Below are positions 13,617 through 20,912 of a stretch of 64,000 nt of DNA, piece after piece. Every line of letters starts with the position of its first letter. The stretch's first letter is position 1. The DNA lies in the NCBI GenBank assembly GCA_029866965.1, contig CP123444.1, forward strand, positions 1,653,501-1,717,500, given 5' to 3'. This DNA comes from Flavobacteriaceae bacterium YJPT1-3. Lineage in GTDB: Bacteria > Bacteroidota > Bacteroidia > Flavobacteriales > Flavobacteriaceae. The position numbers and the translations under genes are program-made. The notes below the pieces were generated by a model. It did no database searches. It worked only from the letters and a program-made list of their open reading frames with translations, and was not told where the DNA came from.

Positions 13617-14369
13617 TTAAGCGGTTGTGCTCTTCCCTGGAGAAGAAAGCACTGCTAGATTATAGATCACAAGTCCAAATCCAATCTTGTTAATGGCGTC
13701 ACCAATATTATAGATTACATCAATATTGAGGTCTCCAAAGATCCCTTCATACCATCCTGGAGTACCGGCCATATACCCTATTGGATAAATCACCCAACCT
13801 ACGAGCACGAACCAGCAAAGTATTTTGTGCGCTTTTAGTACCTGTCCACCAGCTTTCTCTGCCAGTTTCTTTGCACTACCAAGCCAAATTTCATACACGA
13901 TGGCGAAATATGCAGCTCCGGAGATTGCACCCCAAATTGCCGCCTGATCGCGATAGATGGTTTCTCCAAAATATCCGGTAACGAGCATGATTACGGAATA
14001 GATGATTAGTTTCCACATTAATGATCTTTTCGCTCCTGCTACTCTGAGGATCAAATAGAATTCAACGCACATTAATGGAACTGTCAATACCCAATCTACA
14101 TACCTGAAGAATGTGGGTGACTCAGCAAATGCTTCCCAGTAACCTCTCATATAGAAATAGTGTACTGCAGCAATAAAGGTAATCAATCCAGAAACCAGGA
14201 TCGAGGTCTTCCACTTTCTCTCAAAATCATTCATCGATAAAAAGAAGAAAGCCGATGCGGCCATCATGGCCATACTACCCACAAAAAAAGTAAAACCAAC
14301 GTAATCATCGCTGGCCATCCTTTTCATCTCTTGCAGGAAAGGTTCAATTGTGTTAATCATTAATTCCAT
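13617..14369 (-). CDS. Proteorhodopsin, light-driven proton pump (green-tuned)
   Basis: 250 aa seven-helix retinal protein of the inner membrane. The proton-pump triad is present: Asp92 (acceptor, RYVDW), Thr96 (LTVP) and Glu103 (donor, CVEFY), the D-T-E pattern of proteorhodopsins, not N-D-Q of sodium pumps. His70 pairs with Asp92 as in proteorhodopsin, and Lys228 (DAINKIG) carries retinal. The tuning residue is Met100, which in Bacteroidota goes with green absorption. Gly151 lies where a helix-5 glycine leaves room for a carotenoid antenna; antenna binding is only a possibility. The retinal-forming gene blh is transcribed divergently from the adjoining 86-base gap. Confidence 0.95.
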   Translation of the reverse strand: MELMINTIEPFLQEMKRMASDDYVGFTFFVGSMAMMAASAFFFLSMNDFERKWKTSILVSGLITFIAAVHYFYMRGYWEAFAESPTFFRYVDWVLTVPLMCVEFYLILRVAGAKRSLMWKLIIYSVIMLVTGYFGETIYRDQAAIWGAISGAAYFAIVYEIWLGSAKKLAEKAGGQVLKAHKILCWFVLVGWVIYPIGYMAGTPGWYEGIFGDLNIDVIYNIGDAINKIGFGLVIYNLAVLSSPGKSTTA

Positions 14370-14455
14370 AAGTCTGGTTATTTATATTTTGTTTAGATAA
14401 ATTTACTTTATCTTAAACACAATTGTTTAAAAATTTTCTTAAAAGATTAAACAGG

Positions 14456-15364
14456 ATGCAAAATAAGGCCGCGGTAATTGATAATATGGACGGATTCAAG
14501 GTCGTGGCCACTTTTTTTGCGCTTTGGTTAACGGTCTATTTTGACAGTACGACCGAGACCTGGCTGGCTTATACGCTGATCTTTTCAATTGGCATCTTAC
14601 ACGGTTCTAACGATATCCAATTACTACAGCTAGCTCAGGGAAAAGGAAACATTAAGAGTTCCCGTTGGTTAATGATTTACGTTGCTGTGATTCTGCTTTG
14701 TATAGTCTTTTTTTTGATAGACGCGCGAGTGGCGCTTCTCGTTTTTATCGTATTCAGCGCCTACCATTTTGGGGAGCAGCATTGGCATGAAATTTTACAA
14801 AATTCAATTTGGCCTATTAGAGTGTTTTATAGCATTTATGGCCTGCTCATTTTGAATCTTCTTTTTTATAATCACAGCGAAGAAGTCAACCAAATTATTT
14901 TTGAAATGACCGGTTACGAAATTCCCGGTATGCTTTATACCTATCTCGTCTTAGGAACATTAGCTATAGTCATTTTAGGAATAGTTTTTCTAGGATATCG
15001 GAACGAGATCAAACACACGCGCGTTTTAAAGGAATTATTTTTGTTGGGATTGTTTTATCTTATTTTCTTCAATGCTTCTTTGATATGGGCCTTCAGTATT
15101 TATTTCATCGTATGGCATTCCATCCCCTCAATTCAAGAGCAGACTGGTTTGATGTATTCTGGTTTCAGCAAAGAAAATTTGATCAAATACATGAAATCTG
15201 CAGGATTGTATTGGTTTTTATCCGTGACGGCTCTTGTCCTATTTATATTGATCGTAGATAACCAATTGTTCTCCTACATGACATTATTCTTCGCCTTCCT
15301 CGCTGCAATTACGCTTCCTCACGTCCTGGTGATGTCTAAACTCTACAAAGAAACTGACATTTAA
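14456..15364 (+). CDS. blh: Beta-carotene 15,15'-dioxygenase, Brp/Blh family
   Basis: 302 aa multi-pass membrane enzyme that cleaves beta-carotene to two retinals, the chromophore of the adjacent proteorhodopsin. Iron-ligand histidines are visible in the family positions: GILHGSND, SAYHFGEQHWHE, IVWHSIPS and TLPHVLVM. About eight hydrophobic helices. The frame is open from a TTG at 14423, but the ATG at 14456, preceded by AGG, gives the better start. The stop overlaps the stop of the convergent TonB receptor gene. Carotenoid synthesis genes are not in the window. Confidence 0.92.
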   Translation: MQNKAAVIDNMDGFKVVATFFALWLTVYFDSTTETWLAYTLIFSIGILHGSNDIQLLQLAQGKGNIKSSRWLMIYVAVILLCIVFFLIDARVALLVFIVFSAYHFGEQHWHEILQNSIWPIRVFYSIYGLLILNLLFYNHSEEVNQIIFEMTGYEIPGMLYTYLVLGTLAIVILGIVFLGYRNEIKHTRVLKELFLLGLFYLIFFNASLIWAFSIYFIVWHSIPSIQEQTGLMYSGFSKENLIKYMKSAGLYWFLSVTALVLFILIVDNQLFSYMTLFFAFLAAITLPHVLVMSKLYKETDI

Positions 15365-17871
15365 AAACTGAAACGCAGCACGGCGTTTGGTGTAAAGCCC
15401 AGGCCGGTGCGTCGGATCAGAGAAATATTGTCATTAGAGTCGACGCGGTAGTACTCATTGATGATGTTTTCATTGCTTGTGAGATTCCAAACCGAGATCC
15501 CCGCATACAGTTTTTTATCATTATCCAGGTCGTAGGTATAGTTGGCGGAGAAATCCACTTTAAAATAATCCGGTAGGCGCTGGCTGTTGGCAGTTCCGAA
15601 TTCGAGTGGATTGACAGTACCCAGATCGTTTAAGGGGGTTGTTGGCTTACCGGAATGCCAATTGAGTCCGATTGCCAATTTAAATCGATCCATCAGCGTA
15701 TAACTTCCCGAGAAAGAGATGTAGTGGCGAACATCAACATTATTGTAAAAGAGTTCTGGAAATTCAAATTCGTTTGTATCGTCAAAATCATATTGATTGG
15801 TCGCCAAAGTGTACCCCAGCCAAATTCCAACATCTCTCCATTTATAATCAAACAAGAATTCCAGACCCTTGATTTCATAGGAACCCTGCTCTCGAAGAAA
15901 TTCATACTGATTTAAAAATCCTTGCGATTGGCCGGTGATCCCGTCTACTCGCTTGTAAAAGGCTTCAGCGCTGATCAATATTGTATTCCTGTTGTAATGT
16001 CCGCCAATGGAAATTTGTTGGCTACTCAATAGCGGGATCCTATCCTCATCGCTGATGATCCATCTGCGATTCTCTACGCCCAGAAAATCATTTTGAAAAT
16101 CAACCACTTGAGACGTGGTTTGACTTTTTAATTCTCCTTGAACTTCCACACGAAAATGATCCAGTAAGCGTCGCCCCAATACGATACGAGGCTCCAGGCG
16201 GTAGACGTCCGGTTTGTTATAATAATTGGCACGAAGTCCTATTCGGGCAAAGGTTTTTTTATCGGGAGAGTTCCAGGCTGATTCTCCAAAGAGGCCATGA
16301 GCACGCACCACATTTTTAATTTTCCGGAAAACCAACGGATTATTCACATCACTGGTATTGGTGATTCCGGTTTCTGTGAACTGATATCCCAGATCGTGTG
16401 TCCACCGATCATTACTTTTCAAGCGAGAAACACTCTTCACACTGGTCTCCAATACCTGATTTTGTTGTATCAGTCGCTGATTATTAAAAATATCAAAGTT
16501 GGTGGCCGCCAGCTCGTAAGACGAGGCTGTAATCAAAAGGTCGCTGGACCATCGGTGGTCCCAACGGTGATCCAAATAAACAGCCGCTCCTAAATTGTTT
16601 TGTTCGGCCTTGCTTTCCCGAGAAACCTCCTGACCTGCTATATTCGCATTTTCAGAAAAGCTTAAAGTGTTGCTTACGAGCAAACCGTTGATTCGAAGAC
16701 GGGTTTTTGTTCCTAGTTTTTGTAGGTAGCGAAAATTAACATCGTAGAAGCTAAAACGATCCTCACCGGTGCTGACCTGGTCCCCCGCGTCGGTTATTTC
16801 TGTATCCTGAAAGGCTCGTTCAAAAAAGGAAGAATAGGTAGGAGACTCCCAAACTTCATTCAATGATTTTCGCCCTGCGATAAGGAGAGACCCGTTTTTG
16901 GTGATGGGTAAGTTTAAAAAGGCATCCGCACTGATCAAATTGACGCTCGCGGCACCGCCCAATTGCTGATCGATCGTTTCTTCAGACTGCATGGATAAGG
17001 TCCCTGAAACAGCGTCCCCTAAGCTGGCGGGGGTTCCATTTTTGTAGACGTCTACTTGTGCAGTGATGTACGGATTAAATGCAGAGATCAATCCGAAGAA
17101 GTGCCCGCTTTGATACATTTTGATTCCGTCCCAGAGTAAGAGGTTCTGATCGTGAGTACCCCCGCGGATATTGATACGCGACACCCCCTCATTGACGCTT
17201 TGTATGCCCGGAAGCGCCTGTACGGTAAGCAATACATCCGATTCGATCAAACCCGGTAACACCCCAAATTCTTCATACTCAATATGGATGGAACCGTCAT
17301 TTTCTTTGCTGATCCCTTTGGTGAGATAATTGGTGATCACAACGGCTTGCAGTTCTTCTCGTAAGGCTTGCATGACAATCTCAGCGCAAGCACTAGCCGC
17401 GGGAAATTCGAGTTGTTGTGGTTGCAAATCGTCTCGCAGTAAACGAATCGTACTCACCGTAGACGGGACCTCCAAATAGAAATAACCCAGAGCATCCGTT
17501 TGGGTTTGCTGATTACCGGCAAGAACGTCCACCTGAGCAAGGGGTTGTTGGTAGGCGTCATAGACTACTCCACAAAGCAGCTGTTTCGAAGGCTGTGGCC
17601 GACTGATCGTGACGATATCTTCGCCCAGAGAAGTGAATATTAATTGGGTTTTTAGTCTAAGCAGGTGTAAGCTTTCGCGAAAGCTTAATTCTGAGGTAGG
17701 CCAGGCTACGGTCTGATCGGCTACCGCTTGAGTGGCATAGGAAAAACGTACTTCATACCGTTCTTCCAATTGAGGAAGTAGTTCATTTAGTGGTACAAGC
17801 ACTTGCTGCGCCCAAAGAGGCGCAGCAAGGCAACATAATATGATAATTCCTAGTACTTTTTTTGAGGTCAT
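15361..17871 (-). CDS. TonB-dependent outer-membrane receptor with STN and carboxypeptidase-like N-terminal domains
   Basis: 836 aa. A signal peptide (ILCCLAAPLWAQ) is followed by a short STN domain (residues 25-90) that touches the anti-sigma factor, a carboxypeptidase-regulatory-like strand domain (95-165), the plug (VLLTVQALPGIQSVNEGVSRINIRG cited in part: LPGIQSV, INIRGG) and a 22-strand-type barrel ending in RFSF, the Phe-terminal signal for BAM. It overlaps fecR by four bases, so it belongs to the sigma/anti-sigma/receptor unit. The substrate is not deducible; the acidic lipoprotein divergently encoded at 19443 is a candidate partner. It contains one 18-bp palindrome copy. Confidence 0.93.
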   Translation of the reverse strand: MTSKKVLGIIILCCLAAPLWAQQVLVPLNELLPQLEERYEVRFSYATQAVADQTVAWPTSELSFRESLHLLRLKTQLIFTSLGEDIVTISRPQPSKQLLCGVVYDAYQQPLAQVDVLAGNQQTQTDALGYFYLEVPSTVSTIRLLRDDLQPQQLEFPAASACAEIVMQALREELQAVVITNYLTKGISKENDGSIHIEYEEFGVLPGLIESDVLLTVQALPGIQSVNEGVSRINIRGGTHDQNLLLWDGIKMYQSGHFFGLISAFNPYITAQVDVYKNGTPASLGDAVSGTLSMQSEETIDQQLGGAASVNLISADAFLNLPITKNGSLLIAGRKSLNEVWESPTYSSFFERAFQDTEITDAGDQVSTGEDRFSFYDVNFRYLQKLGTKTRLRINGLLVSNTLSFSENANIAGQEVSRESKAEQNNLGAAVYLDHRWDHRWSSDLLITASSYELAATNFDIFNNQRLIQQNQVLETSVKSVSRLKSNDRWTHDLGYQFTETGITNTSDVNNPLVFRKIKNVVRAHGLFGESAWNSPDKKTFARIGLRANYYNKPDVYRLEPRIVLGRRLLDHFRVEVQGELKSQTTSQVVDFQNDFLGVENRRWIISDEDRIPLLSSQQISIGGHYNRNTILISAEAFYKRVDGITGQSQGFLNQYEFLREQGSYEIKGLEFLFDYKWRDVGIWLGYTLATNQYDFDDTNEFEFPELFYNNVDVRHYISFSGSYTLMDRFKLAIGLNWHSGKPTTPLNDLGTVNPLEFGTANSQRLPDYFKVDFSANYTYDLDNDKKLYAGISVWNLTSNENIINEYYRVDSNDNISLIRRTGLGFTPNAVLRFSF
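17669..17686. repeat. Iterated palindrome copy 2 (18 bp)
   Basis: AAGCTTTCGCGAAAGCTT, perfect over 18 bp, in the STN domain region of the TonB receptor gene; read as Phe-Arg-Glu-Ser. Confidence 0.95.
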
Positions 17872-18785
17872 TCCCCTGATAACGTAATCTTATCCTCTAC
17901 AATTGTGTATTGTAAATTTAGAGGTAAGGATAACGCTTTTAGGGCTAAGCTCAAATTATTATGGGGAAAGCTTCCGGAAAATAAGGTGTCAAGGTCGACG
18001 TTTATCGTTTCCACCTCTACCTTGTACTGGCGTTCGAACTCTTCAATAACCATGGAGAAAGGTAGATTGGCGAAGCTAGAGTAATCGGTCATCCAGCTGG
18101 GTTGTTCCTGCGTTAGGCTCGTCAGTAAACCGGGCTGATTATCCGTAAGAACATCATTGTACCCATTTCCTGCGGCCAATTGAAGCGACTGTTCTTTAGT
18201 AGCTACTGCAACCAGACCTTCAAAACAATGTACACTAAAAAGATCGCTTCGGGCATTAACATCAAATTGAGTACCTAAGACAGTCACATCACCGTGTTTG
18301 GTCTGTACCGTAAAAGTCGATCCTTTTTCAACTTTAAAATAAGCCTCTCCGTTCAATTCCAGACTTCGGTCGGATTCCCAACCGTCTGCATCATAAGACA
18401 AGGTACTTGCTGCGTTCAAGACCACCTCAGAACCATCCGGTAGAAAAACGGTGGTTTGCTCTGCAAGATCTGTAGTGATTACCGTGTTATGCTGTTGAAA
18501 AAATGCATAGTACGCTATAAGGGCGATCACCACTACGGCAGCTACGCGCCAGATCGTATATAGGGAGAGGACTGGGGTCGCTGATTTTTGATCAGATAAC
18601 TGATGAATACGGTCTTTCACCGCTTTGAATTGTGCTTCCTGATCAAAGGCAGGGGCTCTGAATTGCCTGGCATGATCAGCAATACGGGCCAGACCGGGGA
18701 AGTCTTCCGTTTGCTTCAGCTCCTCCATTTCTTCTTCAGAAATCGAGTGATCAAGCCATTTATTAAGTAGGTCGTTCTGTTTCAA
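17868..18785 (-). CDS. FecR-type anti-sigma factor with DUF4974 domain
   Basis: 305 aa. The cytoplasmic N terminus (residues 1-80) should hold the sigma factor. One membrane helix follows (IWRVAAVVVIALIAYYAFF), then a periplasmic FecR domain (TTDLAEQTTVFLPDGSEVVLN, of which LPDGSEVVLN is the signature) and a C-terminal DUF4974 that would meet the receptor STN domain. It lies between the receptor and the sigma factor on the same strand, the usual Bacteroidota order, and is likely expressed from the sigma gene's promoter. Confidence 0.94.
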   Translation of the reverse strand: MKQNDLLNKWLDHSISEEEMEELKQTEDFPGLARIADHARQFRAPAFDQEAQFKAVKDRIHQLSDQKSATPVLSLYTIWRVAAVVVIALIAYYAFFQQHNTVITTDLAEQTTVFLPDGSEVVLNAASTLSYDADGWESDRSLELNGEAYFKVEKGSTFTVQTKHGDVTVLGTQFDVNARSDLFSVHCFEGLVAVATKEQSLQLAAGNGYNDVLTDNQPGLLTSLTQEQPSWMTDYSSFANLPFSMVIEEFERQYKVEVETINVDLDTLFSGSFPHNNLSLALKALSLPLNLQYTIVEDKITLSGE

Positions 18786-18835
18786 AATATTCGTTTTCTT
18801 GCTACTAAAACAACTGGGAAGCCATTATTCCTACC

Positions 18836-19351
18836 CTAGAGTTCTTTTAATTGCGATTTCATTTTATCTAAAGCCCCGTAAAGTCGCTTCTCCACTGCCT
18901 TTCGAGAGATTCCCAATAGCGCTGCAATTTCTTTGTGGCGTTTTCCTTCGGCACGATTCAAAAGGAAGACTTCCCGTTGTGCATCGGTCAGCGTGGCTAG
19001 CGCACGCTTGTATTTCTCATGATATTCTTTTTCTTCCAATAAGAACTGCGGGTCATAGTGATCTTTTTGACTACTGACCTGAGCTTCATGCTCGCGAACC
19101 ACCTTTAAGTGTTTGTAGGCATTAAGCATGAGGTTATTCCCAATGGTAAATACAAAGCTTTTCGCTTTATCTGGAGTTACTTTCTTGCAATTTTGCCATA
19201 GCTTGACAAAAGCTTCCTGTGCCTTATCCATGGGATCCAATTGGTCTCCATACCGGTGATAGAGAAATTGATACAGATTTTCCGCATGGAGATTAAAGAG
19301 TGTGCGATAAACCTTTTCCTCACAAACGTCTTTTTCAGGGGTCTCACTCAT
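18836..19351 (-). CDS. ECF RNA polymerase sigma factor, FecI-like
   Basis: 171 aa. Region 2 (AQEAFVKLWQN) and region 4 with an HTH (HKEIAALLGISRKAVEKRLYGAL) are clear; there is no sigma region 1 or 3. It is released by the FecR-like protein when the outer-membrane receptor binds substrate, then transcribes its target genes. The 91-base gap to the divergent acidic lipoprotein gene probably carries both promoters, suggesting that lipoprotein as a regulated target. Confidence 0.94.
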   Translation of the reverse strand: MSETPEKDVCEEKVYRTLFNLHAENLYQFLYHRYGDQLDPMDKAQEAFVKLWQNCKKVTPDKAKSFVFTIGNNLMLNAYKHLKVVREHEAQVSSQKDHYDPQFLLEEKEYHEKYKRALATLTDAQREVFLLNRAEGKRHKEIAALLGISRKAVEKRLYGALDKMKSQLKEL

Positions 19352-19442
19352 GGAAGCATTTTTTTTTCATCCTTTGGGTAGGAATTCGAGCGTTTGAGTT
19401 GTTTTATGGATAGAAATGTATTTAAAACTTAAAATTCAACAC

Positions 19443-20912
19443 ATGAAAGATATAAGAAAAATTATTGCAGTGCTGCTTCTTTTAGGAAGTGGGCTCTTTT
19501 TTTCGTGTCAGGATGAGCTCGTGGAGATCAATGATGAGACTTCCCAGTTCAACTTAAGCGACCAGGCAAAAAACTTACTTTTAAACATTGCCAAGAATGA
19601 CGGTAGTGGGGATAATATTGTTGATGGAGCTAGCTGTTTTGAGGTCAAGCTTCCATTTTCTGTTATTGTCAACGGTTCAGAACTTCTGATAGAAGATGAA
19701 GACGATTATGAAGTGATCGAGGCACTATTCGAGCAATTTTCAGATGATTTAGATGAATTGCAGATCGTATACCCGGTCACAATCATATTTGAAGACTATT
19801 CAGAAGCTGTTGTCGAGAATGACGCGCAACTTGCTGAGTTTGCTGCTCAATGCGGTGGTGAAAACGAAGAAGACGATGATATTGAATGTATCGACTTCAA
19901 CTACCCTATCACATTCTCTGTATTTGACGCCAATGATGATGTCAGTACGGTAACGGTGAACAGCGACAAGGAGCTCTTGGAATTCATTTTAAGCATCGGA
20001 ACTAATGATGTGATAAGCGTTGGTTTCCCGATCACCTTTACGCTTTCAGATGGCTCCACAGTTACGGCTGAGGATGCTGACCAATTGGAGCAGATCATTA
20101 TTGATGCTAGTGACGATTGCGATGAAGATGATGACAACGACTTTGATGATGACGACAACAATGATATCACCGCTGAAGAATTGATAGCACTATTACAAGG
20201 TTGTGAGTATGAGATCGATAAGTTCAAATTGGGCAACGACAGCGATAATAAGCGTTACGAAGGGTTTGTAATCACCTTTGGAGAAGATGGAATCGTACGT
20301 GCCGATGATGGCGTTGACCTTTATGAAGGAGAATACGCAGTGATTGAAGATGGTGATAAACTCTATCTCGAATTAGTCATGGAAGAAGGTTTCTTTGATG
20401 ATATCAACGATAAGTGGAAACTGCACGTCATTGCTGGAGGAGACAGTGATAATGTGAAGCTGGATTTCCGTAATGGTAAGAATCGTATTCGCTTTGAATC
20501 CAAATGTAAATTTGATGATGATGATGATGACGATGAGAATGAAGAGGAAGGTTCTGATTTTTCGGCTGGAGAAGTCGCCGACTTATTGACTGGCTGTGAT
20601 TTTCAGATCGATCAATTCCGATTAGGAGACGAGCAGGATGACGAGCGCTTTGCAGGCTATGTCTTCACTTTTGGAGTTGAGGGCGCTGTAGAAGCTGCTT
20701 CAGGAGACGAAGTGGTTAGCGGTAGCTATACGCTGGTACAGGATGGAGACTATGTGTACTTCACTCTTGAAATGGACGAGCCGCTCACCGACCTAAATGA
20801 CACCTGGAAATTGGATGAGGTAGAATTTGAGAATGACGGCCAACAAGTGAAACTCAAATTTGAAATAAACGATAACCGCGTGCGATTTGAATCGCTGTGT
20901 GGAGACGAATAG
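19443..20912 (+). CDS. Very acidic lipoprotein with two pairs of internal repeats
   Basis: 489 aa. A lipoprotein signal peptide (LLLLGSGLFFSC) places the acylated Cys at about residue 22. The mature chain is dominated by Asp and Glu, including runs such as DEDDDNDFDDDDNND and FDDDDDDDENEEE. Two repeat types occur in A-A-B-B order: type A is about 75 aa with a Cys at each end and YPVTI/FPITF strands; type B is about 110 aa with LLxGC, FxLG, FxFGxxG, WKL and RFES marks. I recognise no named family. The acid clusters could bind Ca2+ or other cations. Placement opposite a sigma/anti-sigma/TonB receptor unit suggests a surface partner or capture protein. An earlier in-frame ATG at 19416 would spoil the signal peptide. 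Confidence 0.85.
   Translation: MKDIRKIIAVLLLLGSGLFFSCQDELVEINDETSQFNLSDQAKNLLLNIAKNDGSGDNIVDGASCFEVKLPFSVIVNGSELLIEDEDDYEVIEALFEQFSDDLDELQIVYPVTIIFEDYSEAVVENDAQLAEFAAQCGGENEEDDDIECIDFNYPITFSVFDANDDVSTVTVNSDKELLEFILSIGTNDVISVGFPITFTLSDGSTVTAEDADQLEQIIIDASDDCDEDDDNDFDDDDNNDITAEELIALLQGCEYEIDKFKLGNDSDNKRYEGFVITFGEDGIVRADDGVDLYEGEYAVIEDGDKLYLELVMEEGFFDDINDKWKLHVIAGGDSDNVKLDFRNGKNRIRFESKCKFDDDDDDDENEEEGSDFSAGEVADLLTGCDFQIDQFRLGDEQDDERFAGYVFTFGVEGAVEAASGDEVVSGSYTLVQDGDYVYFTLEMDEPLTDLNDTWKLDEVEFENDGQQVKLKFEINDNRVRFESLCGDE

Follow-up and report, generated by a model that had tools for sequence, protein, structure and literature searches.

In flavobacteria, a kind of putative surface lipoprotein has its gene next to one sigma-factor signalling system in nearly all cases, and appears to be switched on by that system. 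The member described here lies in a window of 64,000 nucleotides (the whole stretch of DNA that was analysed), where its gene is divergent from a gene for an ECF sigma factor, which is followed by genes for a FecR protein and a TonB-dependent receptor. In our opinion, it is rather likely that this unit is a FecI/FecR/FecA-like surface-signalling cassette with a fourth part, namely a lipoprotein of an undescribed family that serves as ligand-capture partner of the receptor. The lipoprotein probably works with the receptor to catch a nutrient or a signal. The sequences compared bear out the gene order, the conserved linkage, the joint presence of lipoprotein and receptor in genomes, the promoter that both have and the signalling-type domain. 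Among open-access papers, judged by their titles and the openings of their abstracts, we found no description of such a cassette.

Layout and conservation of the cassette

The elements of the unit in the window are the following.

15361-17871, minus strand: TonB-dependent receptor P0004; Pfam plug domain over cut-off
17868-18785, minus strand: FecR anti-sigma factor/transducer P0003, TTG start; FecR (67.1 bits) and FecR_C (37.8 bits), both over cut-off
18805-18836 (core 18809-18835), minus strand: predicted ECF promoter of fecR-receptor, GGTAGGAA-N13-GTTGTT
18836-19351, minus strand: ECF sigma factor P0002, FecI-like; Sigma70_r2 and r4_2 over cut-offs
19352-19442: divergent region between sigma and lipoprotein genes, 91 bases
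19376-19407 (core 19377-19403), plus strand: predicted ECF promoter of the lipoprotein, GGTAGGAA-N13-GTTGTT, spacing as in the fecR site
19443-20912 (ORF open from 19416), plus strand: acidic lipoprotein P0001; signal peptide, Cys31-Q-D-E
19629-20123, plus strand: A1-A2 module, residues 72-236; putative beta-beta-beta-alpha units, no Pfam or NCBIfam family
20112-20156, plus strand: acidic junction after A2, residues 233-247; kept in close relatives, not in divergent ones
20169-20507, plus strand: B1 lipocalin-like domain, residues 252-364
20514-20558, plus strand: acidic B1-B2 linker with 7 Asp before E/N; not conserved
20562-20900, plus strand: B2 lipocalin-like domain, residues 383-495; 4qrl Z 11.1, 93 residues, 2.1 A

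The sigma gene and the lipoprotein frame (19416-20912) stand where the original prediction, made from the sequence of the window, had placed them. The FecR and receptor genes, which overlap by 4 bases, fall outside the stretch that it covered, yet are part of the unit. ATG 19443 is the most likely start of the lipoprotein; it is followed by a signal peptide and then by Cys31-Q-D-E (numbered from 19416), and gives a protein of 489 aa (498 aa as an open frame). With this start, the divergent gap is exactly the 91 bases that had been proposed. The receptor gene has a rhodopsin and a retinal-making enzyme as neighbours, encoded by a bacteriorhodopsin-like gene (PF01036, E 3e-39) and by a beta-carotene 15,15'-dioxygenase gene (PF15461, E 8e-35) divergent from the former, both within 13617-15364 of the window.

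The sigma gene lies beside fecR, and its product additionally matches TIGR02985 with 101.7 bits, under the cut-off of 126.4. P0003, which carries both the FecR and the C-terminal domain, is the sole FecR match of the genome (one PF04773 match, with 25 matches to the plug domain), the genome searched being a single contig of 3.16 Mb that holds the window. The receptor P0004 consists of a signal peptide, an N-terminal FecR_C/STN-like signalling domain (approximately 23-97), a plug (33.5 bits; cut-off 23.9) and a barrel; a carboxypeptidase-regulatory-like domain is also found, weak in this copy. In Pfam, the N-terminal domain of P0004 is weak as well (FecR_C E 0.012, no STN match), and receptor relatives match FecR_C in 18/33 and STN in 2/33 cases at E 0.01. 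A home-made profile finds the signalling domain in all 69 receptor ORFs over 700 aa, and six receptors that lack the carboxypeptidase-like domain still keep it; a receptor that signals would require such a domain.

Relatives were collected by a seeded search (best 80 loci of 116 relatives) and by profile searches for further A-A loci in 60 relatives and 296 genomes of the phylum. The linkage set comprised 123 distinct A-A loci (at least 80 bits, window included), 121 of which had at least 900 bases upstream. Of the 121 loci with room, 119 have the sigma gene on the strand opposite to that of the lipoprotein, and 119 have FecR there; the receptor is present in 67/67 A-A loci with enough room. 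Thus, the adjacency by which the original prediction was to be judged is conserved in relatives. In a few A-A loci the sigma gene is some kilobases away. Exceptions are L104, in which sigma, FecR and receptor lie a little further out, behind two other genes, one for a lipoprotein of the DUF4382 kind and one for a small barrel of the outer membrane, and L052, which shows no sigma gene within its 2 kb of upstream DNA. In locus L074 (135-7858), the full receptor-FecR-sigma set is present twice, in tandem and on the same strand, and a divergent lipoprotein lies beside just one of the two.

Co-occurrence was counted by hand, with cut-offs of 100 bits over the A-A part and of E 1e-60 for the receptor. 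Among the 60 relatives, the A-A module is present in 21 genomes and the receptor in 22; 21 have both, none has the A-A module only, one has the receptor only and 38 have neither. This pattern backs the TonB receptor as the predicted partner of the lipoprotein, while a physical or uptake partnership is something we infer. The receptor-only genome (G033) in fact holds a full cassette, whose lipoprotein has very divergent A-like repeats. At that locus (L170) the lipoprotein is apparently a run of A-like repeats and both promoters are present, which suggests, by comparison of the sequences, that the A unit may be older than the A-A-B form.

The pairing was also counted from the receptor side. Among the 30 best receptor hits (at least 547 bits), 29 are accompanied by an A-A match at most approximately 6 kb away on their contig; the 30th (G008:C54) is on a contig without one. 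Among 11 weaker hits (303-412 bits), one has a strong A-A neighbour (G002:C76), three have weak A-like neighbours (G019:C4, G033:C43 and G029:C4) and seven have none, indicating that more distant receptors do without the lipoprotein. At L171 (G019), the gene for the weak A-like lipoprotein is not divergent; it shares the strand of the receptor gene and lies downstream of it. Weak or partial A-like matches in G010, G020 and G025, genomes with no receptor hit at E 1e-60, were left out of the A-A counts. In the phylum genomes, an A-A match of at least 100 bits was found in at least 25/30 of the same family and at least 1/266 others; these are lower bounds, four candidates per genome having been scored.

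Beyond the cassette, no gene family recurs in more than 16/80 of the loci (best 80 of 116 relatives). The commonest neighbours are ffh and folD, which come after the lipoprotein in 16/80, then a family of lipoproteins (15) and a regulator that by eye is Crp-like (13). The neighbourhood therefore gives no hint on the ligand, and gene context was rejected as a guide to it.

A shared promoter and its regulon

The gap between the sigma gene and fecR holds a conserved two-block element. It should be noted that the promoter pattern was drawn up after the sequences had been seen, and that the denominators are loci already having a sigma gene. At fixed spacing, the pattern precedes fecR-receptor in 113/120 loci and the lipoprotein in 107/121; the controls gave 1/121 on the opposite strand, before sigma, and 0/121 inside the sigma gene. 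Other spacings are nearly empty, except for 20 and 21, which result from doubled -35 blocks. The pattern is missing from 7/120 fecR regions and, in its exact form, from 14/121 lipoprotein regions. Nine of the latter contain near-variants by eye, L051 has only the -10 block, and in four (L049, L071, L081 and L103) the region was shortened by the start call; all 14 were kept as misses. Given the single match before sigma, the sigma factor very probably does not use the predicted ECF promoter for its own gene.

The -35 block is either CAGGA-like or TAGG, and the two promoters of a locus agree in 102/102 cases (60 + 42); under a finer three-way split the agreement is 100/102, with L092 and L114 differing. 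On the sigma tree, this agreement corresponds to one change and not to 102 independent events. For this reason, its treatment as 102 independent tests was rejected, and Fisher values are not used. The receptor tree splits by -35 class in the same way as the sigma tree, and the A-A tree needs two changes.

For a weight matrix, fecR promoters of the TAGG type were taken from 50 other loci, and all positions on both strands were scored with it. In the 64-kb window, the fecR site scores best (22.6) and the lipoprotein site second (17.2), the next site reaching 11.5. Together, the shared promoter at fixed spacing and the matrix ranks argue that the lipoprotein very probably belongs to the sigma factor's regulon. 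The control of the lipoprotein by the sigma factor, which the original prediction had proposed, has strong backing from sequence alone, the promoter being conserved in both place and spacing.

The exact core, GGTAGGA-N15-TTGTT, occurs four times in the genome: before fecR, before the lipoprotein, before a further lipoprotein (P0005) and before a small ORF. P0005 (G000:C1:2504726-2505496; L144 757-1527) is a DUF4382/MbnP-like lipoprotein with SCSSDD after its signal peptide, and the exact promoter lies just before its start. Its relatives were found in 2/22 other genomes, as three copies, each preceded by a promoter of this kind; one copy, in G372, carries the other -35 type. Among DUF4382 loci, 4/24 have the promoter, two of them inside the cassette, and DUF4382 lipoproteins sit inside the cassette in G007 and G002. 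By its predicted promoters, then, this second lipoprotein family has joined the same regulon in some genomes; DUF4382 as a general regulon member was rejected, since 20/24 loci lack the promoter. The fourth core (G000:C1:1158978-1159004; L141 1501-1527) precedes, by eye, an ORF of approximately 50 aa starting MSKKEYLD, which has no Pfam match; this site may be what is left of a lost operon, or may belong to a small member of the regulon. With up to 1 mismatch the genome contains 21 sites, compared with 10 for the pattern read backward, and with up to 2 mismatches 30 compared with 20. In view of these counts for the backward pattern, near-matches elsewhere in the genome were rejected and only the four exact sites were used.

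The arrangement resembles E. coli FecI/FecR/FecA, as outlined in PMC9249621, in its ECF sigma factor, in a FecR protein with FecR and FecR_C domains and in a receptor with an N-terminal signalling domain, which in FecA contacts FecR. In both systems the sigma gene is, by description there and by prediction here, not read from the ECF promoter. Unlike in the E. coli system as given in that source, fecR and the receptor gene here form one operon behind the predicted ECF promoter, and there is a fixed fourth part, a putative surface lipoprotein that has a copy of the promoter to itself. For Bacteroides thetaiotaomicron, TGTT has been noted near the -10 region of ECF sigma promoters, as a motif described as non-significant there (PMC12596196), and a second promoter motif, PM2, has been described (PMC7366714). 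The -10 block found here, TTGTT, contains this TGTT; in contrast with those promoters, the ones found here have a definite -35 block, which reads GTAGGA, GTAGGG or CAGGA-like and stands at one fixed spacing.

Repeats and folds of the lipoprotein

The A-A-B-B internal duplication claimed for the lipoprotein is borne out, for the B pair by BLAST identity and for the A pair by profiles. The two B domains share 44% identity (E 5e-32). Between A1 and A2, BLAST shows hardly any similarity (E 0.068), and a comparison of their profiles shows a clear relationship (hhalign 98.2%, E 6e-14). Weaker profile matches among the halves of these repeats hint that the A-A module may be built of four beta-beta-beta-alpha units (structure model mean pLDDT 82).

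In Pfam and NCBIfam, P0001 has no match near a cut-off, and the A-A module has no family in 81 members, scattered weak matches aside. Fold comparison of the module yielded nothing convincing (Foldseek best E 0.26, VIA best Z 4.7; model mean pLDDT 75). For this reason, a fold assignment was dropped, and newness of the fold is not claimed either; it follows that ligand capture lacks the backing of a known binding fold.

B1 and B2, in contrast, are by structure comparison eight-stranded barrels of the lipocalin-like (calycin) kind. The closest neighbour is 4qrl, followed by 5byp and 4zgf (Z 10.3), and potempin E is also among them (Z 9.8). DUF4923 is matched in 14/81 relatives at E 0.1 (best 4.7e-5), and the window lipoprotein itself matches no lipocalin model in Pfam. 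Thus, the fold of the B domains is common to Bacteroidota lipocalin-like proteins (4qrl, 5byp, DUF4847 4zgf and DUF4923; Z 10.3-11.1), from which the present protein differs in having B in tandem behind an A-A module. Among relatives, the A-A core is constant and the B copies, counted with our own profile, vary from none to four. B also occurs by itself in small lipoproteins. The present genome holds one at another place, a single-B lipoprotein of 147 aa with SCSSDD (G000:C1:850667-851110; L163 4668-5111), with no ECF promoter pattern before it. Lone B ORFs directly downstream of the lipoprotein are present in several other genomes.

Position 34 is acidic in 98% of 81 aligned rows. According to the surface-export (LES) rule as given in PMC5080379, the Cys is followed directly by a polar or basic residue and then by two acidic ones, and the C-Q-D-E of the lipoprotein agrees with this. 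Export to the surface is therefore plausible, as far as the rule in that source extends.

Possible roles of the lipoprotein

We suggest the following course of events. The lipoprotein, anchored by Cys31, would be carried to the cell surface, would catch a ligand with its A-A module, its lipocalin-like B domains or both, and would hand it over to the receptor. By analogy with Fec, the ligand-occupied receptor would signal through its N-terminal domain to FecR, which would free or activate the sigma factor. The latter would then transcribe the fecR-receptor operon and the lipoprotein gene from the two matching promoters, and not its own gene. Points against this account are the A-A fold with its lack of convincing matches, the exceptional loci L052 and L171, the more distant receptors with no A-A neighbour and the number of B copies, since a range from none to four is unusual for a single fixed ligand.

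Two known systems invite comparison. In Bacteroidota, SusC/SusD glycan uptake involves a TonB receptor and a surface lipoprotein under ECF/anti-sigma control. The present unit likewise combines a TonB receptor, a predicted surface lipoprotein and an ECF/anti-sigma gene pair, and differs in that the lipoprotein has no SusD match: no SusD model is found for P0001 at E 1 (Pfam, NCBIfam), nor is SusD among the 25 of 31 families listed for the 81 lipoprotein relatives. By eye, no glycan-degrading enzyme is found among the 22 commonest neighbour families listed. The second system is BtuB-BtuG of Bacteroides, a lipoprotein-assisted uptake of vitamin B12 by a TonB transporter; small-molecule uptake with the help of lipoproteins is proposed to be general in Bacteroides (both as presented in PMC10404256). 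A TonB transporter is paired with a surface lipoprotein in both cases, whereas an ECF/FecR pair is built in here, by comparison with BtuB-BtuG as presented in that source. A PDB sequence search, with no direct alignment to BtuG, gave no match for P0001 and nothing relevant for the A-A profile. A more far-reaching proposal, to which we assign a little less than even weight, is that the A-A module represents a new class of surface lipoproteins that go with TonB receptors: an obligate partner, for capture or as a lid, of a single family of signalling receptors throughout the Flavobacteriaceae, with a role like that of SusD or BtuG, an unrelated fold and its own ECF/FecR circuit, in which the capture module (A-A, DUF4382) would be exchangeable and the sensor core fixed.

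The strongest alternative, which we regard as rather unlikely, is that the lipoprotein is a co-regulated effector, such as a surface coat, an adhesin or an inhibitor, made when the receptor senses its signal and taking no part in uptake. The variable number of B domains and the lineage-specific acidity would fit a fast-changing surface protein; potempin E, a structural neighbour of B, is a protease inhibitor of Tannerella; and a second, unrelated lipoprotein family has the same promoter in some genomes. However, the near-perfect co-occurrence with one receptor family, and the linkage in both promoter clades, are tighter than a downstream effector needs. It is improbable that the lipoprotein is a sensor only, binding a ligand and modulating receptor signalling with no transport involved. 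The presence of the signalling domain in every receptor tested, including the six devoid of the carboxypeptidase-like domain, agrees with such a role, as does the fact that no transporter was seen by eye among the commonest neighbour families; nevertheless, FecA both transports and signals (according to PMC9249621), and inner-membrane transporters may be encoded elsewhere.

The remaining alternative concerns acidity. With 134 D+E of 498 residues (27%, the next window ORF having 18%), the lipoprotein is by far the most acidic of the 49 non-overlapping window ORFs of at least 150 aa, which bears out the extreme acidity noted in the original prediction. The finer counts of that prediction were each off by one: residues 235-250 (CDEDDDNDFDDDDNND) hold 14/16 D/E/N, not 15, and at 20514 an E comes after 7 Asp, where eight Asp had been counted. 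In the 81 aligned rows, the A-A boundaries hold near-invariant acidic residues, and the junction string DDCDEDDD came out as invariant; this apparent invariance is partly due to the search, as the acidic junction DDCDEDDD was one of its six initial seeds. Twenty divergent loci that hold the same cassette have D+E contents of 7-18% and, for the most part, no junction runs. These 20 are among 47 profile-found A-A loci, which may include copies of loci from the seeded search; across all 47, acidic residues occupy positions 236-240 of the junction in about half to 70%, and what is kept throughout is D66 (47/47), D70 (97%) and four prolines. Judged by these alignments, the acidic runs are a feature of part of the family, located at domain junctions, and not what the system depends on; the Asp runs were accordingly dropped as a defining feature and as functional evidence. 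That the runs bind Ca2+ or another cation, and that cation capture is the function of the lipoprotein, as had been proposed, is the least probable reading and very doubtful: the overall acidity, the near-invariant junction residues and the retained D66 and D70 would favour it, but the runs are absent or short in most of the divergent cassette members, relatives do not conserve the long Asp linker that joins B1 to B2, and the junction was itself a search seed.

A capture partner of the receptor remains, in our opinion, the preferred reading of the lipoprotein. As a receptor, its likely partner lipoprotein and exact promoters are now tied together, searches for the ligand become simple reporter assays, for which a genome with one FecR and four exact promoter cores offers a simple setting. 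If the lipoprotein is indeed a capture partner, a new fold would join the short list of lipoprotein partners of TonB receptors, such as SusD and BtuG, and one sensor core may be combined with different surface lipoproteins.
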